Source: Planctomycetota bacterium (GTDB lineage Bacteria; Planctomycetota; Phycisphaerae; UBA1845; UTPLA1). From it: 64,000 nt of DNA. Each line of letters begins with the position of its first letter. Position 1 is the stretch's first letter. This document shows, piece after piece, positions 16,152 to 29,605 of this stretch. The notes under the pieces are model-generated. The model saw only the letters and a program-made list of their open reading frames with translations, was not told the DNA's origin and made no database searches. The translations under genes and the position numbers were made by a program. The stretch covers positions 1 through 64,000 of the forward strand of contig JACRIM010000054.1 in assembly GCA_016235815.1 (NCBI GenBank), written 5' to 3'.

Positions 16152-17228
16152 ATGATTGAATCCGCAGCCAACAAAAAGGACGCGACCGGTGCGTCGCCCG
16201 CGCCCATGACCGGGACGTTAATGGCGCGTCTCTTTGTGGTCCCGGCGATCATCGTGTGCTTACTACTCGGCGTTGCGGTGGTGGTGGTGCTGTTCGGAAG
16301 CACGTCGATCGACAAACCGGAGACGATCGTCGATCTGCTTGCGAGGATTGAGTCTGATACGGGCGAGCGAACGGCGGGGGTGTTGCTTGCACCTCATGCC
16401 AAGGAAACATGGCAGGCATCGCAGGAGTTGGCGCAGCGGCTTCAAAACAAAGAAAAATTCCTCGCCGCAAATGAGATCGAGCCAACCGCGACACGAATCG
16501 CGAGACTACTGGAGAAATTCCCGTCTGGTCAGGACGTGGCCGAACCCGGTCCGGGGCAGCAGTATTTTTTGATGTTGGCGTTAGGGCGCCTGGGTTCCGA
16601 GTCGGCGGTGGCGCCCCTGACAAATCTTTTGAAAGATCCGAACGGCACGACGCGGCGGACGGCGCTCCAATCCCTCGCCGAACTGCGTGGGACACCCGCG
16701 GCCAAGGCGGCGTTGCCGAGCGTGCTTCCGCTGTTGAATGATGCGCGGCCGGAAGTGCAGATGGTCGCCTGTGCGACGGTGGCATCGCTGGCCGAACGCG
16801 GTGATCCAGCGGCCATCAAGGCGGTCGCCTCTCGGTTGGAATCGGACCGCGAGATTCAGTGGAACGCGGCGATGACGCTTGCCCGTTTGGGCGACCTTCG
16901 TGGCAAGATGGTCCTGCTCAACATGTTGGAGCGAGGCTATTGGGAAAAGCTCGATTTGGAGTATCTCGAGGGGAACTCAACAATCCGCCGAAAGTTCACC
17001 GACGTCGAGGTTTCCAATAACCTACGCAGCGCGATTGAAGCGGCCTCCCATGTTAAGGACGCGGACCTGGCCGCGTTGGTGGGGCGATTAAAGAACGATT
17101 CATCGGTGCAGGTGCGTGACGCGGCGCGGGTGGCGTACGAGAAAATGGGATTGCAAAAGGCGGAATGGACTCGCCGAGACGCGGATGGAACCGCGGTTCG
17201 GCTGCAGGAAGGTGGCGAGGTGTCGTAA
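16152..17228 (+). CDS. HEAT-repeat membrane protein heading the respiratory operon
   Basis: A 358-residue protein with one strong transmembrane helix at about residues 25-50, then HEAT-like helical repeats (for example GRLGSESAVAPLTNLLKDPNG and ATVASLAERGDPAAIKAVA) to the end. HEAT repeats are protein-binding scaffolds; the domain faces one side of the membrane. Its stop overlaps the next start (TAATG at 17226-17230), coupling it to the ferredoxin-Rieske gene, so a scaffold or assembly role for the bc-type complex is a fair inference. ATG 16152 is used because the longer frame would begin inside the -35 box. Confidence 0.75.
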   Translation: MIESAANKKDATGASPAPMTGTLMARLFVVPAIIVCLLLGVAVVVVLFGSTSIDKPETIVDLLARIESDTGERTAGVLLAPHAKETWQASQELAQRLQNKEKFLAANEIEPTATRIARLLEKFPSGQDVAEPGPGQQYFLMLALGRLGSESAVAPLTNLLKDPNGTTRRTALQSLAELRGTPAAKAALPSVLPLLNDARPEVQMVACATVASLAERGDPAAIKAVASRLESDREIQWNAAMTLARLGDLRGKMVLLNMLERGYWEKLDLEYLEGNSTIRRKFTDVEVSNNLRSAIEAASHVKDADLAALVGRLKNDSSVQVRDAARVAYEKMGLQKAEWTRRDADGTAVRLQEGGEVS

Positions 17229-18280
17229 TGCCGACCATCGAAATGGTAACGAAGGTGTGGATCGCCCCGGGATGCATCGTTTGCGATGCGTGCGAGACGA
17301 CCGCGCCGAGCGTGTTTGAGGTGCAGCACGACAATGAGACGTGCATTATTCGACCGGCCGCGTTGGATATGGAGTTCACCAAGCCGCTCACGAAAGACAT
17401 TATTCAGTCCGCCGAAGAGTGCCCGGTCAACGTCATCAAGTTTGATCTGACGCCTGTTGAAGTGAGCGAGGCTGAGGCTGCGGCATTTGCATCAAAACCG
17501 TCGGCTCCTTCTGCTCCGGCTGCATCGCATGGTGAACCGACAGGGGCGACGGCAAAGGGTTCACCCGCAAAGGCCGCCACCCCCGCGAAGCCGAAGGTGA
17601 TGGACCCGGCGATTCAAGCGTTGCTTGCGGCGACCACGTCGCGCGGCGGCCATGCCGTCCTGCAACAGGGCTTGCCCGAGGGGATGAAGCATCTGCCCAA
17701 GCTTTCACCGGATCAGCTTCCTCCGGATGGTCGGCAACAGAAAGTCCTCGAAAAGACAAAGGCGGAAGCGACAGAACCGACACGGCGCGACCTCATGCTC
17801 GGCATCGGCTGGGCGGCGACGGCCGTGGCGTTTGGCGCAGTGCCGCTTGCAGCATTCAACCGATTCATGGCGCCCAATGTGCTCGAACAAGAAGACCCAA
17901 AGGTGCGCTGTGGGTCGATTGCGAAGTATCGAGCCATGGCGCCGGGCGATGTAAACGAAGACTTCAAACCCGTGAAGCCGAGCGGCTTCTGGATCATCCG
18001 CGAGGAGGATCGCATCTGCGCCGTGTCGATTATCTGCACGCACCTGGGTTGCATTCCCTCATGGCTGCCGAATGATCGAAAGTTCAAGTGCCCCTGCCAC
18101 GGAAGCGGATTCAAACCGGATGGTCGTAACTTCGAAGGCCCCGCGCCGCGGCCGCTGGAGCGGTTCAAGGTGTATCTTGACGGCGATGAAGTGATCGTGG
18201 ATCGTTCCCGCAAGTTTTTGGCCATGGGTCCGACGGACACGGCGGTCTGGAACGACCCCGATGCAAGCATTCCGGCGTAA
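17228..18280 (+). CDS. Ferredoxin-Rieske fusion protein of a bc-type complex
   Basis: A 350-residue protein. Residues 1-75 form a single-cluster 4Fe-4S ferredoxin domain: C16-IV-C19-DA-C22 and C65-P. A Pro/Ala-rich linker (~80-180) leads to a twin-arginine-like RRDLM at 186-190 and one transmembrane helix (~191-212). The C-terminal Rieske domain binds 2Fe-2S through C270-T-H272-LG-C275 and C288-P-C290-H291. The helix would place the Rieske domain outside, as in all bc complexes, and the ferredoxin domain inside. Start ATG 17228 overlaps the HEAT gene stop. Rieske function is certain; the ferredoxin part is an added electron entry or exit, by inference. Confidence 0.93.
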   Translation: MPTIEMVTKVWIAPGCIVCDACETTAPSVFEVQHDNETCIIRPAALDMEFTKPLTKDIIQSAEECPVNVIKFDLTPVEVSEAEAAAFASKPSAPSAPAASHGEPTGATAKGSPAKAATPAKPKVMDPAIQALLAATTSRGGHAVLQQGLPEGMKHLPKLSPDQLPPDGRQQKVLEKTKAEATEPTRRDLMLGIGWAATAVAFGAVPLAAFNRFMAPNVLEQEDPKVRCGSIAKYRAMAPGDVNEDFKPVKPSGFWIIREEDRICAVSIICTHLGCIPSWLPNDRKFKCPCHGSGFKPDGRNFEGPAPRPLERFKVYLDGDEVIVDRSRKFLAMGPTDTAVWNDPDASIPA

Positions 18281-18331: not shown

Positions 18332-19117
18332 ATGAGTTTGTTTAACGCGGTCGGGGACTATGTACGCGAGAGCCAGGTATGGGGCTCGATCTTTCGTCAT
18401 GGCGTTCCGAAGGATCGCCGGACGCGGGCCATGGCGATCCTCAGCAACGTGTTCCTGCACTTGCACCCTGTGGCGGTGCGCAAGAGCGGCATTCGCCTGT
18501 CATTCACGTGGTGCATGGGCGGTCTGACGTTTTTCCTGTTTCTGGCCGAGACGATTACGGGCGTTCTGCTCATGTTCTACTACCGGCCGGTGGTGGAGTA
18601 TGCATACGCCGACATTATTGCACTGAGAGCGCATGTAACGCTGGGCCTTCTCCGCGAGATTCACCGGTGGGGGGCGCACGCGATGGTGATCGCGATCTGG
18701 CTGCACATGCTGCGCGTGTTTCTGACGGGCAGCTACAAGCCGCCGCGGGAATTCAACTGGGGTGTCGGTGTCGTGCTGCTGACACTGACGCTGCTGCTCT
18801 CGTTTACCGGGTATTTGCTCCCCTGGGATCAACTGGCGATGTGGGCCATCACGGTCGGATCAAACATGGCACGTGCGACACCCGTTGCGGGGCATGAAGG
18901 GCCGGGTGCAGCGCTCTTGCAGATATCCGGAGTTCCGCTGATTCACGCCGGATCGGATGCCCGGTTCAGTCTGCTCGGCGGAACGCTGGTCGGGCCTAAT
19001 GCGTTACTGCGGTTCTATGTATTGCACTGCGTATTTATTCCTGTGGTGGTGACGGTGCTGATCGCCGTTCACTTCTGGCGCATCCGCAAGGATGGGGGCA
19101 TCTCGGGGCCGCTGTAA
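18332..19117 (+). CDS. petB: Cytochrome b6-like subunit with haem c_i cysteine
   Basis: A 261-residue integral membrane protein with the four-helix core of cytochrome b6. Haem b ligands are H111 and H125 (IHRWGAH...WLHMLR, 14 apart) and H232 and H247 (15 apart), the b6 spacing. C61, in [12 protein letters not shown], aligns with the Cys of cytochrome b6 (FYCLGGIT) that covalently holds haem c_i (c_n) near the Qi site. It forms the quinol-oxidising core with the split subunit encoded next. The symbol is by homology to b6; this is not a photosynthetic gene cluster. Confidence 0.93.
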
Positions 19118-19158: not shown

Positions 19159-20340
19159 ATGCCGATGAATCCGATGCGATCAATGCTGGCGACGAGCGAA
19201 GCGATAGCGGCCGAACATGGGCCGCTCGACGCGCTGAAAGAGACGATCAATCATCTCTGCGCTCCCTATTACTTCGTGCCGCTTACCACAATCATCCTGA
19301 TGGTCGGCCTGCTGACGTATCGACGATGGACGAAGCCGCGAATGGCTCTGACGCTGCTGTTCGCCTTCACCGTTTTCTATGTCGGCAGCATGCTCGATCA
19401 TGCGTTTTTCCTCATTATCAAAAAGCCCGACAACGTCCCGATCACCATCATGATCTTCTCGACGTTGTTCTGCATCTGGCTCGCCTTTCGCCAGGCCGCC
19501 ATCAACGATGAGCGAATGACGCGCGGTTTACCGCTCATCGAAAGCGGCGCGGATGACAAGGTCCTGGTGTGGCCCGACCTCGTTTTCACCGAGCTAATCT
19601 GCCTCATCCTCTGCACCGCCGTGCTTATTGTGTGGGCCATTTTGCTGAAGGCCCCACTGGAGCCGCCGGCGAACCCTACGAATATCCCCAACCCGTCGAA
19701 GGCCCCGTGGTACTTCCTCGGCCTGCAGGAGCTACTCGTCTATTTCGATCCGTGGATTGCAGGTGTGTTGCTACCCGGCCTGATTATCGTGGGCCTGATC
19801 GCACTTCCATACATCGATAAAAATCCGCGCGGCAACGGGTATTACACATTCAGCCAGCGGCCCATGGTCATCACAACCTTTATGTTCGGCTTCGGCATCA
19901 TGTGGATCGTGCTCATCGTCCTCGGCACCTTTCTACGCGGGCCGAACTGGAATCTGTTCGGGCCATACGAGACGTGGGATCCGCACCGGCCTGCGGCGCT
20001 CCTCAACATTAACGTTGCCGAAGTGTTTTGGGTGGTTCTGCCGGAGAAGACGGGCCTGTGGAAGCCCGGCGTTCCGACCCAGGCATCCTTTGGTCTCCCG
20101 GTTTATCTAATTCGCGAAGCCCCGGGGTTGTTCATCCTCGGCGGCTATTTCTTTGTGCTGCCAGTCCTGCTTGCGAAGTCGGTCTGCAAGAAGATTTACG
20201 CGCAGATCGGGCTGATTCGTTATGCAATCTTCTGGCTGCTGATGTCGTGGATGATGTTCGTTCCGATCAAGATGGTCTTGCGATGGTTGTTTAACCTGAA
20301 GTACTTCGTGGCCATCACGGAGTGGTTCTTCAATATTTAG
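19159..20340 (+). CDS. Cytochrome b C-terminal (subunit IV-like) membrane protein, extended
   Basis: A 393-residue membrane protein with roughly nine hydrophobic segments. The middle carries the subunit IV / cytochrome b C-terminal motif PSKAPWYFLGLQELLVYFDPW; the usual PEWY of the quinol-oxidation site is here APWY, so the catalytic Glu is absent at that spot, as in several bacterial split-b complexes. It is more than twice as long as b6f subunit IV (~160 residues), with extra helices on both sides. It lies 41 nt after the b6-like gene. Complex membership is firm; the roles of the added segments are unknown. Confidence 0.88.
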   Translation: MPMNPMRSMLATSEAIAAEHGPLDALKETINHLCAPYYFVPLTTIILMVGLLTYRRWTKPRMALTLLFAFTVFYVGSMLDHAFFLIIKKPDNVPITIMIFSTLFCIWLAFRQAAINDERMTRGLPLIESGADDKVLVWPDLVFTELICLILCTAVLIVWAILLKAPLEPPANPTNIPNPSKAPWYFLGLQELLVYFDPWIAGVLLPGLIIVGLIALPYIDKNPRGNGYYTFSQRPMVITTFMFGFGIMWIVLIVLGTFLRGPNWNLFGPYETWDPHRPAALLNINVAEVFWVVLPEKTGLWKPGVPTQASFGLPVYLIREAPGLFILGGYFFVLPVLLAKSVCKKIYAQIGLIRYAIFWLLMSWMMFVPIKMVLRWLFNLKYFVAITEWFFNI

Positions 20341-20364: not shown

Positions 20365-23300
20365 ATGCCCGTCACTACGGACACGCTGTATTCCCCACGC
20401 CGTTTGAACCGATGGTTCGCTGTCTCGGCGGTGTTTTGCCTCGTGGCATCGGGTTGGATGCTTTGGCATGATTTCAACCGGCCCTGGCGGCATACGCAGC
20501 GGGAGTATTTCAATTTGCGATCGGCCATGGCGCACTTTGACGCGCTGAGCTATCAGAACCCTTCCGAAAAGGAAAAACACGCGAAGTTGAAGTCCGCGGT
20601 CGATGAGGCTCAGAAGGAACTCGATTCCCCGGAGTTGAAAGCCCGTGAACGCGAATTGCTCGCTGCGGAAAAGCTTCTCACCGGCCAGTCACAGGCGGTG
20701 GCACTCGATTATGGCAACCGCAACGCGGAGTTGCAGGTCAAGCTGTTCAACGTGGAAGAAGCCAAGACGCTGCATGGCCCGGACGATCCGAAGACGGTTG
20801 CCCTTAAGGCCGATTACGACGCAAGCGTGAAGGTCACCGCCGCTCTAAAGAAAAAGCAGGATGCGCTGGAAGATGACATCCGCGACAAGAAATCGAAGCT
20901 GAAAGAGTTGTACCGAAAGCGCAGTGAAGCACAAAAAGTGCTTTCGGCCTATGAAAAAGGGCTGGCGGACGCCGAGCGTCTCGACAGCATGTACGGCCCG
21001 GGGCTTGCTCGCATGGCGTTCAATATTCCCGGCCTGGATTATCTCGCCCCCAAGGGCGTGCCAGGCCGTGAGGAAGTTCAGCAGGTGTTCATGAAGGGCA
21101 TCCGCTTCAATTACAACTTCCTGGATTCATACGTTACGGACCGGTGCATTACCTGCCACGTCGGCATCGATAACCCGGCCTTTACGATGGAAGCCTTCGT
21201 AAAGAAGACGGAGACTGCGATTGCATCGCAGGCCGTGCAAACAGTGCTCGAGCAGGAAAATCAGCGGCTCATGAAAGTGCTGACCCGCCGTCTTGCGGAC
21301 GTTGACGTTGCGGAGTTCACCAAGAGCGGTGTGACGTTGGACGACGCCGGCAGGGCGAAGTTCGTTTCGGCGATGGTGAGCGGTGCAAACGATTATCTCA
21401 CCGAGATCAATCGTCCGGAGATCAAGACCGCCGATGTGTTGCCGCTGTTGAAGGACAAACCGCTGACGCGTGGGGTAATCGAAGATCAGCTCAATCAAAT
21501 CGTTCGCGACATTCTATTCGCCACCGCTCCAAAGGCGAGTGACGGTAAGTCGGCTTTGAGGTTCGATCAGTTGGATGAAGCGCGTCGCATCACTTATTTC
21601 ACAAGCCTCCTGGCCGCGATGAACACGTACCTGGAACACGAAGGTCGCCCGAAGGTCGATCTTAAGAGCGAGCTGCGGGCTCACCCGCATTTGGATTTGT
21701 ATATCGCGCCAACGTCGGCGCACCCGATGAAGACCATGGGATGCACCGTTTGTCACGAGGGCAGCGGCCAGGAAACGGATTTTGTCTTCGCGGCGCACAC
21801 GCCGAAAGACAAAGCGGAAAAGAAACACTGGGAAGAGCAATATTACGTCCGCGAATTGGGCGTGCCCTTGGCCACGTTCCACCTCATTGAGGAGTTCTGG
21901 GAACGGCCCATGCTGCTGCCGGGTTACACGTCGGCCAGTTGCCGAAAGTGCCACCAGCAAACCTATGACCTTGAGCGACGCAAGACGGAACCGCTCGAAT
22001 CGGCCCATCGCGTTGTTGAGGGTCGCGATCTCTTCACGACGGTCGGTTGCATCAACTGTCACGCGGTTGAAGGTTTGAACGATTCACGGCGCGTCGGCAC
22101 TGATTTGACGCACGTGGCCAGCAAGCTGTCCGCCGGTTTTATGGAGCGATGGGTCGAATACCCGAAAGAATTCCGGCCATCGACATGGATGCCGCACTTC
22201 TTCAAACAGGAGAACAATCTCCCTTCGAGCGCCAATGAGTTCGATCCTGATCCGGTCGTCCGAACTGAGACCGAGATTCAGTCCATCGTTCAATATCTGC
22301 GGACATTCTCGAAACCGTTTGACGCGGTGCCGGTCCCATCCGGCATGACCGGCGACGCAAAGCGAGGCGAGGAACTCTTTACTTCAATTGGCTGCCTCGC
22401 CTGCCACGCGAATCTCGATGCCAAGGATCCCCTGGATGATTCCGGTCGTACCCTGGGTGAGCGGTGGATCGTCACGGATCTTGTTCACGTACAGGGACTG
22501 GCCAACGACGACGCAAAGAAACGGTATGACGGCTTGAGCAAGAACGACCGTATCCGTTATGCAATGCACAACTTCACAAAAACGCGACGCGAAAAGGCGA
22601 CCGAGGCAAAACGCCAGGAAGAACTGGCCGCCGACCGGGAAGGGCGCGACCCCGATCCAAAGAAGACGTATGTGCCGCCGGTTTATACACGCGTGGCTCC
22701 CGATCTTTCGGGTCTTGGAACCAAGTTTGTCCCCGACGCCGGCGACGAGAGCCAACGGAGCAAGGCAGGGCAGTGGTTGTACAACTGGCTCAGGGAGCCG
22801 CGTCACTATTCGTCCTACACGCGGATGCCGCGTCTCTTCCGTGATAATGTCTACTGGGCCGATGACGAGGCAACACGCAAGAAAAAGACCGATCAGGATA
22901 TTCTCGACGTCGCCGCATACCTGCTTACGCTTCGAAACGATGATTTTTCATCGCAGCCCATCGCCGACGACGCAAAGCATCAGGACATGGCCCGAAGCCT
23001 GATTCTCGATCTGCTCAGCGGACAGAACACCGCGGCCGTCAGCCAGCGCATTCTCAACGATGAAAAGAACAGCCCTGATGATCCATACGGCCGGCTGACT
23101 TCGTCGATCGTGGCCCAGACGTATCGGAGTTTTGGCGACGGCGACAGTGGTCGTAATCAAGTTGCCGCCCTGCTCAGCCAACACGCACCGACGCTTGCTG
23201 ACCGGCAACGCCTCTTCCTCGGCATGAAAATGATCGGCCATTACGGCTGCTATTCGTGTCACACCATTGCCGGTTTCGAAGATGCAACGCGGCCCGGCAC

Positions 23301-24816
23301 GGAATTGACACTCTGGGCCGACAAATTCATGAGCCAGCTTGACTTTGCCTTCTTCTCGCCGCCCTTCGAGGAGGAGCTGGAAAAGCAGCACGACGTGTTC
23401 GGCAACCTGTTCATGAACACGCCGGAGTTTGCACACCTTGCCCGCGACGCCGCCGGAAATCCACCGAATGAAATTCTGCACAACCATGCATCGTTCGCCT
23501 ATCACAAGCTGCGAAACCCGCGCATCTGGGATCGCAAGAAGATCAAGAAGCCGTATGAAAAGCTGAAGATGCCGAACTTCTTCCTCAGTGATGAGGAGGC
23601 CCGTTCGCTGGTGTCCTATGTCCTGAGCTTGCGTCAGGCAAATGTGGCAAAGGACGTGCAGATTCCCTATGAGCGCACCCCGGCCGGAAAGATTGCGAAG
23701 GGCCGCGCCTTGGTGCGGGAATTGAACTGCATCGGTTGCCACACGATCGAAGGCAACGACGCGAACATTCACCAGTATTATTCGACCGACACCGGCTTGT
23801 CGGATTCCGATCCGCGCAGCCTGCGGTTCAAGCCGCCCCTGCTCTGGGGGGAAGGCGCGAAGGTACAGTTCAATTGGCTCTTCTCGTTCTTGAACAATGT
23901 CGAAATGCTGCGTCCCTGGCTCAAGGCGCGAATGCCGAGCTTCTATCTGACGAAAGAGCAGACTACGACGCTGGTGGAATACTTCGCCGGACTTGCGCAG
24001 GATGAATCGCGGATCCTAAAGAGGGATCTCGACGGGATTATCAAGCACCTGCGGGAAGTTCACGGCAACGACAAGGCGGCCGCGGCGACCTCGCAGTGGT
24101 TCACCGATGAGAAGTTCGCCGATCAGGCCGCGTTTTTGAAGCGATATGCCCTGGCCAAGCAGCAGACCGGCCCACTCGATTTCCAGCCGAGCGCGAGTAC
24201 TCCCGATGACATAAACAAGTCGCTGGCCGGGGTGTACGACCGCGTGGTGAATCGCGGCAGCTTCATGGCAAGCGTCTTCAACGTGGAGTACCCATTCACC
24301 GATCCGAATCTGCACACCACAGGCGATGCGGAGTTCAAGCTCGGCGAGGAGTTTTTCCACAACTTGCGATGCCTGTCGTGCCACGTTGCCGGCGACCCAA
24401 AGGCCCCCGGAACAACGACGGATATTAAGGCTCCAAACTTTGCATTGACCTCCAAGCGGCTTCGCTATGACTGGGTCGTGGCGTGGCTGCAAGACCCGCA
24501 GGCCATCCAACCGGGTGCCAACATGCCGCAGATCTTCCAGGGCGGCAGCGCCTTTTCGGCGTCCCCGGCTGAGGATCGTGCGAAGATGGAGGCCAAGTTT
24601 GGTAAGTCGACAGACGAACAGGCCAAGCTGCTGGTCGATTTCCTTTACACGCTTGGTGCAAGGAACTACACGTCGATCCAGCCTGGTGGAGCAGTTGCGG
24701 CCCCTGCCGCGGCGGAACCAGCCAAGGGCGGCGACTTTGATTTTGACAGCGGTGGCGATGCGAAAAAGCCCGGCCAGGCTACGAGCCAGCCGGCCAAGCA
24801 GGAGTTTGATTTCTAA
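20365..24816 (+). CDS. Giant octahaem cytochrome c of the bc-type complex
   Basis: A 1483-residue membrane-anchored protein. One helix at residues ~13-34 anchors it; residues ~60-205 are Lys/Glu/Ala-rich predicted coiled coil. Eight CxxCH haem c sites start at residues 261, 460, 526, 562, 677, 962, 1122 and 1336. The tail is Ala/Pro/Gly-rich with DFDF and EFDF acidic-aromatic repeats. No known cytochrome c1 or f is encoded nearby, so this probably receives electrons from the Rieske protein and passes them on toward the cupredoxin and oxidase. It starts 24 nt after the subunit IV-like gene. Family assignment (cytochrome c domains) is certain, role inferred from position. Confidence 0.93.
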   Translation: MPVTTDTLYSPRRLNRWFAVSAVFCLVASGWMLWHDFNRPWRHTQREYFNLRSAMAHFDALSYQNPSEKEKHAKLKSAVDEAQKELDSPELKARERELLAAEKLLTGQSQAVALDYGNRNAELQVKLFNVEEAKTLHGPDDPKTVALKADYDASVKVTAALKKKQDALEDDIRDKKSKLKELYRKRSEAQKVLSAYEKGLADAERLDSMYGPGLARMAFNIPGLDYLAPKGVPGREEVQQVFMKGIRFNYNFLDSYVTDRCITCHVGIDNPAFTMEAFVKKTETAIASQAVQTVLEQENQRLMKVLTRRLADVDVAEFTKSGVTLDDAGRAKFVSAMVSGANDYLTEINRPEIKTADVLPLLKDKPLTRGVIEDQLNQIVRDILFATAPKASDGKSALRFDQLDEARRITYFTSLLAAMNTYLEHEGRPKVDLKSELRAHPHLDLYIAPTSAHPMKTMGCTVCHEGSGQETDFVFAAHTPKDKAEKKHWEEQYYVRELGVPLATFHLIEEFWERPMLLPGYTSASCRKCHQQTYDLERRKTEPLESAHRVVEGRDLFTTVGCINCHAVEGLNDSRRVGTDLTHVASKLSAGFMERWVEYPKEFRPSTWMPHFFKQENNLPSSANEFDPDPVVRTETEIQSIVQYLRTFSKPFDAVPVPSGMTGDAKRGEELFTSIGCLACHANLDAKDPLDDSGRTLGERWIVTDLVHVQGLANDDAKKRYDGLSKNDRIRYAMHNFTKTRREKATEAKRQEELAADREGRDPDPKKTYVPPVYTRVAPDLSGLGTKFVPDAGDESQRSKAGQWLYNWLREPRHYSSYTRMPRLFRDNVYWADDEATRKKKTDQDILDVAAYLLTLRNDDFSSQPIADDAKHQDMARSLILDLLSGQNTAAVSQRILNDEKNSPDDPYGRLTSSIVAQTYRSFGDGDSGRNQVAALLSQHAPTLADRQRLFLGMKMIGHYGCYSCHTIAGFEDATRPGTELTLWADKFMSQLDFAFFSPPFEEELEKQHDVFGNLFMNTPEFAHLARDAAGNPPNEILHNHASFAYHKLRNPRIWDRKKIKKPYEKLKMPNFFLSDEEARSLVSYVLSLRQANVAKDVQIPYERTPAGKIAKGRALVRELNCIGCHTIEGNDANIHQYYSTDTGLSDSDPRSLRFKPPLLWGEGAKVQFNWLFSFLNNVEMLRPWLKARMPSFYLTKEQTTTLVEYFAGLAQDESRILKRDLDGIIKHLREVHGNDKAAAATSQWFTDEKFADQAAFLKRYALAKQQTGPLDFQPSASTPDDINKSLAGVYDRVVNRGSFMASVFNVEYPFTDPNLHTTGDAEFKLGEEFFHNLRCLSCHVAGDPKAPGTTTDIKAPNFALTSKRLRYDWVVAWLQDPQAIQPGANMPQIFQGGSAFSASPAEDRAKMEAKFGKSTDEQAKLLVDFLYTLGARNYTSIQPGGAVAAPAAAEPAKGGDFDFDSGGDAKKPGQATSQPAKQEFDF

Positions 24817-25024: not shown

Positions 25025-25885
25025 ATGTGTAAGAAGGCGGCAGTATGGGTTCTGGCGGGCTTTGTAAGCCTCGCGATTGCGACGACCGGCGCGAAGGCCG
25101 ACAACGAGAAGGGGACAGCCGTCGTCAAAGGCAAGGTCGTTTTTGAGGGTGATGCGGCCGATCCGAAGCCGTTGCCCCCGATGAACGCTGATGCCGTCTG
25201 CGCGAAGGCCCATGCCAAGACTCAGCCCGATCAGGGCACGATTGTGTATAAGAAGGACGGCAACACGATTCCGTATGTGTTCGTGTACGTCAAGAGCGGT
25301 CTAAAGGGCAAGTATGACGCGCCCACCGAGCCGGTCACGATTGATCAGCAGGGTTGTATGTATCACCCGCACATCCTCGGGATGGTCGCCGGCCAGACGA
25401 TCCAGATCAAAAACAGCGACCCGACCAACCACAACATTCATTCGCTTGCCAAGAAGAACTCTCAGTTCAACTTCGCCCAGCCCAACGCCGGCATGGTGAA
25501 GGAGCTCAAGAGTGGCGACACCTTCAACAAGCCGGAAATCATGGTCAAGGTCAAATGCGACGTTCATGCCTGGATGTCGTGCTTTGTCGGTGTTTGCACG
25601 CACCCGTTCTTTGACGTCACCAAGAGCCATGAGAATGACGGCGGCGACAAGTCCAAGCGCGGCACGTTTGAGCTGAAGAATCTGCCGGCCGGCGAGTATG
25701 AGATCGAGGCCTGGCACGAGAACTTCGGCACTGTCACGCAGAAAGTGACGATTAAGGATGGCGAGACCAAGGACATCGAGTTCAAGCTCGGCCCCAAGAA
25801 GTCGAGCGACGCCTCCGACAAGATGAAAGAAGTCATCGTCAAGGAAAACGGCACGCTGGCCAATCAGGCGAACGCCGGTAAGTAA
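25025..25885 (+). CDS. Exported cupredoxin-like copper protein
   Basis: A 286-residue protein with a signal peptide (residues 1-25, MCKKAAVWVLAGFVSLAIA). Type I copper ligands can be read: His in H136-NI-H139, then C178-DV-H181-AW-M184, the Cys-x2-His-x2-Met loop known from amicyanin. A carboxypeptidase-regulatory-like beta domain follows (RGTFELKNLPAGEYEIEAWHE). Start ATG 25025 has GGAG at 8-nt spacing. Placed between the octahaem cytochrome and cytochrome oxidase subunit II, it may carry electrons between them, in place of a small cytochrome c. Confidence 0.85.
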   Translation: MCKKAAVWVLAGFVSLAIATTGAKADNEKGTAVVKGKVVFEGDAADPKPLPPMNADAVCAKAHAKTQPDQGTIVYKKDGNTIPYVFVYVKSGLKGKYDAPTEPVTIDQQGCMYHPHILGMVAGQTIQIKNSDPTNHNIHSLAKKNSQFNFAQPNAGMVKELKSGDTFNKPEIMVKVKCDVHAWMSCFVGVCTHPFFDVTKSHENDGGDKSKRGTFELKNLPAGEYEIEAWHENFGTVTQKVTIKDGETKDIEFKLGPKKSSDASDKMKEVIVKENGTLANQANAGK

Positions 25886-25956: not shown

Positions 25957-26955
25957 GTGAATTTGCTGCTCGCCTCCACCCATTACGGGGCGTGGACCCC
26001 GCCGCTCTATTCACAGCACGGCGGTTCGATCGACAAGTTGATCGACGTGGTTCACGTATTCATGTTCGTCATCTTCATTCCGTGGGCGATTTTCTTCGTC
26101 TATTGCCTCATGAATTTCCGCGCCCGGCCGGGGCATAAGGCGACGTACACGCCGATCAAGGCGAAAGTTTCCAAATATGCCGAGGTCGGCGTCGCGATAT
26201 TTGAGGCCTTCCTGCTTCTGGGCATGTCGATGCCGGTCTGGGCCGACTACAAGAACAATCCTCCGGCGCCCGACCAGCGGCTTGAAATGCGAGTCGTTGC
26301 GGAACAGTTCCAGTGGAACTTCCATTATTCCGGCCCGGATGGCAAATTCGGCGCAACAAGGTCCTCGCTGATTTCCGCGAGCAACCCCATCGGCTTGGCG
26401 GAGGACGATCCTGCGTCGAAGGATGACATCGTTCGTGTAAATGAGTGCCACCTGCCGGTAGACAAGCCGATTTATCTGCGCCTTACATCCAAGGACGTCA
26501 TTCACTCCTTCGACATCCCCACGATGCGTGTGAAGCAGGACGTGATTCCCGGTATGGAGATTCCGATCTGGTTCACGATCGACAAGAATGCGACGACTGA
26601 TTCCATTCGGCCGCAAATGAAGACCGTCGTTCCGATGGATAAGGCCGAGTGGTACAAAGTTCGGCATCTCGTTGCCGCGGTCGATCACAAAGTGAAGGAT
26701 GAAGTCGTCCTCGCGAAAGGGGCCGACCTCGGCGCGGATTTGACAAAGGGTAAGGAACTCCTCGAACAGCTTCGTAAGAAGGGGCTGACCGAACTTACCC
26801 TGGAGCCTCGTAATCCGCTTGAGATCGTCTGTGCCCAGCTTTGCGGCAACAGCCATTTCAAGATGAAGGCCCAGGTCATGACCCATACGGCCGAGGACTT
26901 TGCGAAGTGGCTCACCGAGTCTTCCAAAAAACCCGAGATGCAAACGGACTTCTAA
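25957..26955 (+). CDS. coxB: Cytochrome c oxidase subunit II (CuA subunit)
   Basis: A 332-residue protein with two N-terminal helices (~25-50 and ~72-95) and an outside cupredoxin domain. CuA ligands are the His in DVIHSFDIP and C292-x3-C296-x3-H300-x2-M303. No CxxCH is present, so this is not a caa3-type subunit. About 80 extra residues, including a Lys/Glu/Leu-rich helix, separate the core strands from the CuA loop. GTG 25957 is preceded by GGGAG at 6 nt. First gene of the oxidase block. Confidence 0.94.
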   Translation: MNLLLASTHYGAWTPPLYSQHGGSIDKLIDVVHVFMFVIFIPWAIFFVYCLMNFRARPGHKATYTPIKAKVSKYAEVGVAIFEAFLLLGMSMPVWADYKNNPPAPDQRLEMRVVAEQFQWNFHYSGPDGKFGATRSSLISASNPIGLAEDDPASKDDIVRVNECHLPVDKPIYLRLTSKDVIHSFDIPTMRVKQDVIPGMEIPIWFTIDKNATTDSIRPQMKTVVPMDKAEWYKVRHLVAAVDHKVKDEVVLAKGADLGADLTKGKELLEQLRKKGLTELTLEPRNPLEIVCAQLCGNSHFKMKAQVMTHTAEDFAKWLTESSKKPEMQTDF

Positions 26956-27016
26956 TCGGCGCGGCGTCGCTTGACTGCGACCCGAATTCACGATTCTTCA
27001 ACAAGGTTTGTCGGAT

Positions 27017-28774
27017 ATGAGCGGACATCACGATCACTCACACGGCCATCACGACCACGGGCACGATTTGCCCTTCTGGCGGAAGTACATCTTCTCCGTC
27101 GATCACAAGATGATCGGCTGCCAATACACCGTGACGGCTCTTTTGTTTTTGTTCTTCGGTTTCACGCTGATGATGATCATGCGGTGGCAGTTGGCCTACC
27201 CCGGCCAGGCCATCCCCTTCATCGGTCAGTACCTGAGCAAGGACATCGCCGCGGACGGCGTGCTCGTCGGCGACGGCTACAACGCCTTCGGCGCGATGCA
27301 CGGCACCATCATGGTGTTTCTTGCCATCGTGCCCCTCGCGGTCGGCGGTTTCGGAAATTATGTGCTGCCGCTTCAGGTCGGTGCTCCCGATATGGCCTTC
27401 CCCAAGCTCAACATGATGAGCTATTGGGTCTATTTTTGCGGCGGCGTCACCATGCTCACCAGCTTTTTTATCAAAGGTGGTGCGGCTGCGTCCGGGTGGA
27501 CGTCGTATCCACCACTCTCCGTATTCGCATCGAGCGGGCAAACCGTCTGGCTTTTGGGCATGGTGCTGTTGATCACGTCGTCGCTGCTCGGCTCGGTGAA
27601 TTTCATCGTGACCACCGTGCAAATGCGGGCCAAAGGGCTGAGTTTCTTCCGGCTGCCGTTCTTTGTCTGGGCCCAGTTGGTGACGTCATTCCTGTTGCTG
27701 TTGGCATTTCCTCCGCTGGAAGCGGCCGGCGTGTTGCAATTAATGGATCGCTTGGCCGGTACAAGTTTCTTCATGCCGTCCGGCCTCGTGTTTTCCTCCG
27801 AGCCACAAACCCACATGTCGGGCGGCGGCAGCCCACTGCTGTGGCAACACCTCTTCTGGTTTCTCGCCCACCCCGAAGTCTATGTGCTCATTCTGCCTGC
27901 CATGGGCATCGTCTCGGAGGTCATTGCCACCAACACACGCAAGCCGTTGTGGGGCTACAAGTCGCTGGTCTATTCTGTCATTTTCCTCGGGTTCATGTCG
28001 TTCATCGTCTGGGCGCACCACATGTTCATGACGGGCATGGGTACGACGCTCAGCACGTTTTTCCAGGCGACGACCATGGTCATTTCGGTGCCCTCGGTCA
28101 TCGTTCTGACCTGTCTGATACTCAGCCTGTACGGCGCATCGATTCGCTACAACACACCGATGCTTTTCGCCCTCGCATTCCTGCCAATGTTTGCCATCGG
28201 CGGCTTGACGGGCCTCCCGCTGGGTCTGACCGCCTCCGACATCCACCTGCACGATACGTACTACGTCATCGGCCACTTCCACTATGTTGTGGCCCCCGGC
28301 ACGATCTTTGCCATGTTCGCGGGAATCTACTATTGGTTCCCGAAGGTCACCGGCCGCAAGATGAGTGAGTTCCTCGGCAAGCTGCATTTCTGGCCGAGCT
28401 TTGTGTTCATCAACGTCGTCTTTATGCCCATGTTCTTCCAGGGTATGGCCGGGCTGCTGCGTCGCCAATATGACCAAACCGAGCAGTTGCACGGCTCCAT
28501 TGCCCATGGATTGACGAAGATGTCGTCCTACGGCGCGTGGTTGCTGGCATTGGCTCAGCTCCCGTTCATCATCAATTTCTTCTACAGCATGTTCAAAGGC
28601 CGCAAAGTTGATGCGAATCCGTGGGAGTCGACGACGCTCGAATGGGCGGCCCCGTCGCCTCCGCCGCACGGCAACTTCGATAAAACACCGGTCGTCTATT
28701 GCGGCCCGTATGAATACAGCGTCCCCGGTAAAAGCAAAGACTATTGTCCTCAACACGTTGCGATGGAGGCCTGA
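27017..28774 (+). CDS. coxA: Cytochrome c oxidase subunit I (haem-copper catalytic subunit)
   Basis: A 585-residue, 12-helix A-family haem-copper oxidase subunit that reduces O2 and pumps protons. Signature ligands are present: the haem a His in MHGTIMVF, HPEVY with the Cu-linked Tyr and the D-channel Glu, the WAHHMF His pair, and H412DTYYVIGH420FH422 for haem a3 and haem a. The start MSGHHDHSHGHHDHGHD has eight His in 17 residues on the inner side. ATG 27017 is used rather than a TTG at 27008. Follows coxB by 61 nt. Confidence 0.97.
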   Translation: MSGHHDHSHGHHDHGHDLPFWRKYIFSVDHKMIGCQYTVTALLFLFFGFTLMMIMRWQLAYPGQAIPFIGQYLSKDIAADGVLVGDGYNAFGAMHGTIMVFLAIVPLAVGGFGNYVLPLQVGAPDMAFPKLNMMSYWVYFCGGVTMLTSFFIKGGAAASGWTSYPPLSVFASSGQTVWLLGMVLLITSSLLGSVNFIVTTVQMRAKGLSFFRLPFFVWAQLVTSFLLLLAFPPLEAAGVLQLMDRLAGTSFFMPSGLVFSSEPQTHMSGGGSPLLWQHLFWFLAHPEVYVLILPAMGIVSEVIATNTRKPLWGYKSLVYSVIFLGFMSFIVWAHHMFMTGMGTTLSTFFQATTMVISVPSVIVLTCLILSLYGASIRYNTPMLFALAFLPMFAIGGLTGLPLGLTASDIHLHDTYYVIGHFHYVVAPGTIFAMFAGIYYWFPKVTGRKMSEFLGKLHFWPSFVFINVVFMPMFFQGMAGLLRRQYDQTEQLHGSIAHGLTKMSSYGAWLLALAQLPFIINFFYSMFKGRKVDANPWESTTLEWAAPSPPPHGNFDKTPVVYCGPYEYSVPGKSKDYCPQHVAMEA

Positions 28775-28777
28775 TCC

Positions 28778-29605
28778 TTGTCCACGACGGTCATCCCACA
28801 CGATCTTGAGCCGCATCCGCTTACGGGGATGTACAACGGCAAATTCGGAATCTGGCTGTTCCTGGCCTCCGAAATCATGCTGTTCGGCGCGTTGTTTTCG
28901 ACCTATGTACTGCTCCGCGTGGGTGCGCCCCCGGGGCAATGGCCCGCGCACGGCTCCGAGATACTAAACGTCCCGCTGGCCACATTGAACACGGCCGTGC
29001 TGATCAGTTCGTCGGTGACGATGGTCATGTCATGGGCGGCATTGAAGATGAAAAAGTTCGGCTCCGCGCAGGTTTGGCTGACGATCACGTTTCTCTGTGC
29101 CGGCGCGTTCCTTGTGGTGAAGTACTTCGAGTACACCGACAAGTTTCATCACTATCAGGTCTGGTTAAACGATCCGATGCCGGTCGGCGGACATGAAGTG
29201 ACCACGATCAAAGGCCACCTGACGGCAGACAGCCCCAAGCTGGAGTGCAGCGAAAAGACCGGTGCTTTCAACATCCCCGAGTACGTCATAATCACACCCG
29301 ACGGAGATCACGGCAGTTCGGGCCATGGCGAGGCCGTCCGCGTGGAAGGCTCGAAGATCAAACGAATCTCCAACTTCGGCCCGCGCCACAGCCCCTATCT
29401 GGCGACCTATTTCACAATGACCGGCCTGCACGGTCTGCACATCGTCGGCGGTATGGTGGTGATTCTCTATTTCATGCTGGTCGGTGGTGCGATCTGGAAG
29501 CGCAGCCCGGAGAAATACACCAATCGCATCGAATGCACCGGCCTCTATTGGCACTTTGTCGACTTGGTGTGGATCTTCCTGTTCCCGGTTCTCTATCTGC
29601 TCTAG
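28778..29605 (+). CDS. coxC: Cytochrome c oxidase subunit III, with hydrophilic insert
   Basis: A 275-residue membrane protein starting with TTG at 28778, 8 nt after GGAGG. It has helices near residues 22-45, 65-85 and 90-112, an unusual polar stretch (~115-205) rich in His, Asp and Gly, then the conserved YFTMTGLHGLHIVGG and WHFVDLVWIFLFPVLYLL helices. Subunit III stabilises subunit I and supports proton uptake. The insert is not usual for the family. Confidence 0.93.
   Translation: MSTTVIPHDLEPHPLTGMYNGKFGIWLFLASEIMLFGALFSTYVLLRVGAPPGQWPAHGSEILNVPLATLNTAVLISSSVTMVMSWAALKMKKFGSAQVWLTITFLCAGAFLVVKYFEYTDKFHHYQVWLNDPMPVGGHEVTTIKGHLTADSPKLECSEKTGAFNIPEYVIITPDGDHGSSGHGEAVRVEGSKIKRISNFGPRHSPYLATYFTMTGLHGLHIVGGMVVILYFMLVGGAIWKRSPEKYTNRIECTGLYWHFVDLVWIFLFPVLYLL

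Follow-up and report, generated by a model that had tools for sequence, protein, structure and literature searches.

Gene content of the locus

The window analyzed here comprises 64,000 nucleotides (positions 1-64,000, forward strand) of contig JACRIM010000054.1 (GCA_016235815.1), from a Planctomycetota bacterium. It contains the gene for an octahaem cytochrome c, set within an operon whose order is HEAT-repeat protein, ferredoxin-Rieske fusion, b6-like cytochrome b, subunit IV (SUIV)-like protein, octahaem cytochrome, cupredoxin, CoxB, CoxA, and CoxC. The Rieske, b6, SUIV, and octahaem genes are separated by 51, 41, and 24 nucleotides, and their order is retained in most homologous loci. The genes for an aa3-type oxidase lie downstream of the octahaem gene, beyond that of the cupredoxin.

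The octahaem open reading frame (ORF) has an ATG start and encodes 1483 amino acids, with a single strong hydrophobic segment close to the N terminus. CxxCH motifs begin at amino acids 261, 460, 526, 562, 677, 962, 1122, and 1336 (spacings of 199, 66, 36, 115, 285, 160, and 214 residues), and 16 of the 17 cysteines fall within them. An earlier note on this DNA had described an anchored protein of this length with eight such sites 36 to 285 residues apart, and the ORF, the motif positions, and the hydrophobic segment all agree with that description. The octahaem gene and its parts are as follows.

20365..24816, +, octahaem cytochrome c, homologue of Kuenenia Kustd1485 (ORF, eight CxxCH, homology to the L087 octahaem, synteny)
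20410..20472, +, N-terminal membrane anchor, about amino acids 16-36 (hydropathy peak at amino acid 17; helix 11-37 in the homologue model)
20500..21000, +, long helical segment, about amino acids 46-212, probably an antiparallel helical hairpin (AlphaFold2 [AF2] model of the Marinimicrobia homologue)
21007..21984, +, trihaem module, haems 1-3, putatively bis-His with H440, H453, and H478 (CxxCH and His conservation; weak c7/c3-type Pfam matches)
21145..21159, +, haem 1, CITCH (42/42)
21196..21666, +, insertion, amino acids 278-434, between haem 1 and the rest of its module (alignment gaps; no Pfam match)
21742..21756, +, haem 2, CTVCH (42/42)
21940..21954, +, haem 3, CRKCH (42/42)
21997..22344, +, class-I cytochrome c domain of haem 4 (PF00034 and FixO matches)
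22048..22062, +, haem 4, CINCH, candidate Met ligand M609 (motif 42/42, MP 42/42)
22342..22989, +, class-I cytochrome c domain of haem 5, with an insertion at amino acids 687-772 (PF00034; alignment gaps)
22393..22407, +, haem 5, CLACH, candidate Met ligand M821 (42/42; domain fold resembles SoxX/class-I cytochromes c)
23182..23679, +, class-I cytochrome c domain of haem 6 (PF00034)
23248..23262, +, haem 6, CYSCH, candidate Met ligand M1069 (42/42)
23677..24024, +, class-I cytochrome c domain of haem 7 (PF00034)
23728..23742, +, haem 7, CIGCH, candidate Met ligand M1190 (42/42)
24316..24699, +, class-I cytochrome c domain of haem 8 (PF00034)
24370..24384, +, haem 8, CLSCH, candidate Met ligand M1387 (42/42)

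Haem sites and homology to Kustd1485

From composition, 0.005 CxxCH motifs would be expected in a protein of this kind, and none of 2000 shuffles contained more than one. All eight motifs are invariant across 42 aligned full-length sequences from Planctomycetota (Kuenenia included) and Marinimicrobia, which excludes a chance origin. The same alignment contains three distal histidines, H440 (42/42), H453 (41/42), and H478 (42/42), and five methionines, M609, M821, M1069, M1190, and M1387, each within an MP motif and each invariant. The histidines are the candidate sixth ligands of haems 1 to 3 and the methionines those of haems 4 to 8. On this pattern of conservation, the protein would consist of one trihaem module with bis-His ligation and, after it, five monohaem domains of class I with His/Met ligation.

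Judged by sequence, the protein is a homologue of, and syntenic with, Kustd1485 of Kuenenia. A blastp comparison with the 948-amino-acid octahaem at locus L087 gave three matching segments (E values of 5e-25, 2e-21, and 1e-13), the haems and ligand candidates align, and both genes adjoin Rieske, b6-like, and SUIV-like genes. The L087 locus consists of a Rieske protein, a b6-like protein, an NAD(P) oxidoreductase with iron-sulfur domains, a SUIV-like protein, and the octahaem, and its Rieske fragment has the same sequence as the Kuenenia protein of PDB entry 9rk3. We take its octahaem to be Kustd1485 because the locus has the Kustd1480-1485 layout and its Rieske protein lacks the Tyr reported to be missing from Kustd1480. 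In the Kuenenia complex, the Kustd1480 Rieske protein has a potential of +335 mV, and Kustd1485 stands instead of cytochrome f (Hauser et al. 2025, PMC12954380).

Domain anatomy and predicted structure

Taken singly, each of the haem 4 to haem 8 modules matches PF00034, and the trihaem module gives only weak matches to c7/c3-type Pfam families. The earlier note had proposed several mono- or dihaem modules; a multimodular protein is indeed what we find, with one trihaem bis-His unit and five monohaem domains as its probable composition. Kuenenia largely lacks the insertions at amino acids 278-434, 687-772, 860-925, and 1220-1321, and Marinimicrobia mostly lack them too. The alignment thus indicates that insertions lacking from compact relatives make up most of the long haem-free sequence and are the source of most of the uneven haem spacing.

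An AF2 model of amino acids 210-1409 (1200 amino acids) has a mean predicted local distance difference test (pLDDT) score of 87.7 and a predicted template modeling (pTM) score of 0.85; the haem modules are therefore predicted to pack together as a single, confident unit. In the AF2 model of the full-length Marinimicrobia homologue, the membrane helix is followed by long helices at residues 40-133 and 139-205, an arrangement consistent with an antiparallel hairpin. The coiled coil of about 145 residues suggested in the earlier note is in line with these long helices, but heptad periodicity in amino acids 47-212 is no higher than in shuffled sequences (a weak test), and we dropped it as proof of a coiled coil.

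In fold comparisons, the haem 5 domain resembles SoxX/class-I cytochromes c (Z of 12.4 for the homologue model and 7.5 for the window model). VIA-align likewise returned class-I cytochromes c for this domain, its matches to the hairpin were nonspecific long helices, and the trihaem module was not assigned to any fold; Foldseek returned no match at an E value of 0.001 or better for either model, and a PDB sequence search with the whole octahaem gave only weak matches (best E of 0.0019). An identification as SoxX (TIGR04485) was rejected: the whole protein scores above the cutoff by summing its repeats, no single module reaches it, and we read the score as generic class-I similarity.

Partner genes and the absence of cytochromes c1 and f

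Neither cytochrome c1 (PF02167) nor cytochrome f (PF01333) was matched in the octahaem protein or anywhere in the whole genome (G000, about 95% complete), and both were matched in control genomes. The earlier note had reported this absence for the operon, and it extends genome-wide. The remaining genes of the operon are listed here.

17228..18280, +, Rieske subunit with an N-terminal [4Fe-4S] ferredoxin domain (Pfam Rieske and Fer4_13; PDB 9rk3; motifs, membrane segment)
18332..19117, +, b6-type cytochrome b with haem cN cysteine C61 (Pfam; alignment to PDB cytochrome b6; conservation)
19159..20340, +, subunit-IV-like membrane protein (PF00032)
25025..25885, +, exported cupredoxin-like protein with a C-terminal CarboxypepD_reg domain, candidate electron relay (copper ligands, single copy, L093 fusion)
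25957..26955, +, CoxB, CuA motif CAQLCGNSHFKM (Pfam COX2; motif)
27008..28774, +, CoxA, haem-copper oxidase subunit I (Pfam COX1)
28778..29605, +, CoxC (Pfam COX3)

The HEAT-repeat protein at the start of the operon (window about 16188-17228) has an N-terminal membrane segment and is conserved in many homologous loci. The cytochrome b belongs to the b6 type, with the split into b6 and SUIV proteins and the haem cN cysteine. Among 35 aligned sequences, its residues H43 (34/35, the exception being a gap), R252 (35/35), and K253 (35/35) are conserved; they correspond to His62, Arg266, and Lys267, the residues for a new dimer-interface haem in the Kuenenia model. This haem site, predicted in Kuenenia and unproven, may be general to this family.

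The ferredoxin domain of the Rieske protein (CxxCxxC...CP, amino acids 16-66) is not preceded by an export signal and is followed by an RR membrane segment near amino acid 189; its cluster should therefore be cytoplasmic. Within the same order, all 15 of the complete Rieske ORFs carry the domain; the Rieske proteins of Kuenenia, of Marinimicrobia, and of the remaining sampled Planctomycetota do not.

The open frame of the cupredoxin gene runs from 25004, with a likely ATG at 25025, and the gene is present as a single copy in its own genome. Its copper ligands are conserved in the 41 locus sequences (H143, C185, and H188 in 41/41, M191 in 40/41), and its CxxHxxM loop resembles that of amicyanin. 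In a genome of the same class, an ORF of 1865 amino acids (L093:4962-10556) carries a C-terminal cupredoxin/CarboxypepD fusion on the octahaem, and the cupredoxin is encoded a second time, on its own, further downstream. The fusion points to electron uptake by the copper protein beside haem 8.

Oxidase subunit II carries the CuA motif without a cytochrome c fused to it. Genome-wide, no class-I cytochrome c domain was found in an open frame shorter than 332 amino acids. Three dihaem class-I cytochromes of 332 to 585 amino acids are encoded at L102, L103, and L105 (own-genome contigs C54, C23, and C27), one of which ends in SFEF, much like the octahaem terminus QEFDF.

Distribution of the octahaem family

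Octahaem homologues are present in 25 of 41 close genomes and in 77 of the 294 genomes sampled from the phylum Planctomycetota, and relatives exist in Neomarinimicrobiota as well. Eight CxxCH motifs are present in each of the 41 full-length homologues examined, including the Marinimicrobia protein, which holds the same eight haems in 1011 amino acids. A quick tree groups the octahaems largely by taxonomy, with Marinimicrobia on one branch and Brocadiae on another. In two genomes of the same order, the eight-haem genes (L045:6714-10382 and L047:6430-9882) lie between dihydroorotase-like and DNA-ligase-like genes, and no Rieske, cytochrome b, or cupredoxin gene is found nearby; their partner genes may be elsewhere in the genome.

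Proposed role and alternatives

We consider it probable that the octahaem protein acts as the cytochrome c subunit in a b6f-type Rieske/cytochrome b complex, occupying the position of cytochrome c1 or f and serving as a fixed multi-haem relay to a cupredoxin or to CuA. The earlier note had likewise placed it in the role of c1 or f, a suggestion that gains from its position in a Rieske/cytochrome b operon and from its homology to Kustd1485, described instead of cytochrome f (PMC12954380). The protein would be held by its single N-terminal helix, from which the helical hairpin would lead to the trihaem module and then to the five class-I domains. The Rieske cluster would reduce a membrane-near haem, and electrons would travel along the haem chain and exit near the C-terminal haem 8. 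From there they would pass either to the cupredoxin encoded just downstream or straight to the CuA site of the aa3-type oxidase of the same operon, and then to oxygen.

Several points weigh against this proposal. That the complex forms and transfers electrons in this organism is something that we infer. The three haems with putative bis-His ligation, usually of lower potential, would be unexpected on a high-potential branch. The octahaem gene is not beside Rieske and cytochrome b genes in the two L045 and L047 genomes or in some others, the 187-nucleotide gap between the octahaem and cupredoxin genes makes cotranscription uncertain there, and the oxidase could also be served by the larger dihaem class-I cytochromes encoded in other parts of the genome.

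A serious alternative is that the octahaem docks on the oxidase and feeds CuA within a III-IV supercomplex, as actinobacterial cytochrome cc does, with the cupredoxin having some other role. The operon shared with CoxBAC favors such direct transfer, as does the genome search, which turned up no small soluble cytochrome c of class I, and several class-I domains could act as a built-in carrier. However, the octahaem gene has retained beside it the gene for a cupredoxin whose copper site is invariant, the two are fused at L093, and some relatives have their oxidase genes away from the octahaem gene; we regard a purely direct route as possible and as the less likely course. It is also conceivable, though in our estimation unlikely, that the trihaem module is a side entrance by which periplasmic dehydrogenases reach the oxidase branch, making the octahaem a hub and not solely a replacement for cytochrome f. 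The three conserved bis-His candidates, of usually lower-potential chemistry, beside five His/Met haems would suit a hub, as would the L045 and L047 genes without adjacent Rieske and cytochrome b genes, but no donor gene was identified, and the trihaem module follows the membrane anchor and is present in every complex-associated homologue.

The earlier note had suggested that the protein is perhaps a wire across the wide planctomycete periplasm, a role that might extend to distant or extracellular acceptors. The great length of the protein, its eight haems, and its long helical segment speak for a wire, which we nevertheless consider very unlikely. The haem region is predicted as one confidently packed unit, the extra length is haem-free insertion, the homologues of Kuenenia and of Marinimicrobia, which are not planctomycetes, hold all eight haems in about 950 to 1010 amino acids, and the Kuenenia octahaem wraps around its own complex in a published AlphaFold3 (AF3) model. 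Less credible still is a catalytic enzyme of the hydroxylamine oxidoreductase (HAO) or nitrite reductase kind, despite the eight haems and the occurrence of HAO-like octahaem proteins in Planctomycetota. No HAO-family profile in Pfam or NCBIfam matches, and the five invariant Met-Pro and three invariant or nearly invariant His candidates, conserved at all eight haems, leave no obviously open haem site, a point against catalysis. Those octahaem proteins that have been reported from Phycisphaerae are of the HAO-like kind, a separate family. Clear homology to an unrelated enzyme family, which the earlier note had named as evidence against its reading, did not appear.

The cytoplasmic side of the complex may offer a further outlet, since electron exit to the Rieske-fused ferredoxin is possible from the arrangement of the genes and domains. 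In its most elaborate form, quinol oxidation would be bifurcated: the high-potential electron would pass via the Rieske cluster, octahaem, and cupredoxin to oxygen, and the low-potential electron via haem cN and the predicted interface haem to the [4Fe-4S] ferredoxin domain, so that oxygen respiration would drive the formation of reduced ferredoxin or NAD(P)H. We think such bifurcation doubtful.

Comparison with known systems

The replacement of cytochrome f by an octahaem protein is already known from anammox bacteria. What differs here is its setting in an aa3-type oxidase operon, the ferredoxin-Rieske fusion, the likely copper relay, the longer protein, and the lack of an NAD(P) oxidoreductase gene in the operon. 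We found no description in the literature of this octahaem in aerobic planctomycetes or Marinimicrobia; subscription papers were outside the search, and an earlier description is possible. The octahaem substitution for cytochrome f thus appears as a conserved family across Planctomycetota and Marinimicrobia that includes aerobic-oxidase operons. It offers an oxygen-respiring setting in which to test the purpose of the eight haems, which the Kuenenia work left open, and it names a copper protein as a likely next carrier. The ferredoxin-Rieske fusion also makes testable an existing proposal, that electrons leave such complexes on the cytoplasmic side.

The closest likeness is to the Kuenenia complex, with which the window shares the order of Rieske, b6-like, SUIV-like, and octahaem genes, the same order of eight haems with aligned ligands, and the interface-haem residues; 9rk3 is also the best PDB match of the window Rieske protein. 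The window differs in its octahaem, which at 1483 amino acids is about 50% longer than the 948 of Kuenenia, in the ferredoxin domain of its Rieske protein, and in an operon that runs on into cupredoxin and aa3-type oxidase genes. The Kuenenia operon has an NAD(P) oxidoreductase gene, whereas none is present among the genes of the window operon; the likeness to a Kuenenia-type NAD(P)-linked complex as a whole therefore does not hold, and that of the octahaem subunit is unaffected.

Like the cytochrome b6f complex, the window encodes split b6 and subunit IV proteins, a haem cN cysteine, and a b6f-type Rieske protein, but it lacks cytochrome f and has an octahaem in place of a monohaem subunit and a longer SUIV protein. 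Compared with SoxX and other class-I cytochromes c, which are single modules, the octahaem shares the fold of the haem 5 domain and the predicted His/Met ligation, with a weak sequence match per module. In the actinobacterial III2IV2 supercomplex, a dihaem cytochrome cc stands in place of c1 and the partner is an aa3 oxidase. A multi-haem subunit replacing c1 and an aa3 oxidase as partner, here a putative one, are common to both systems, and they would work alike in a putative supercomplex if direct transfer occurs; cytochrome cc has two haems and the window protein eight.

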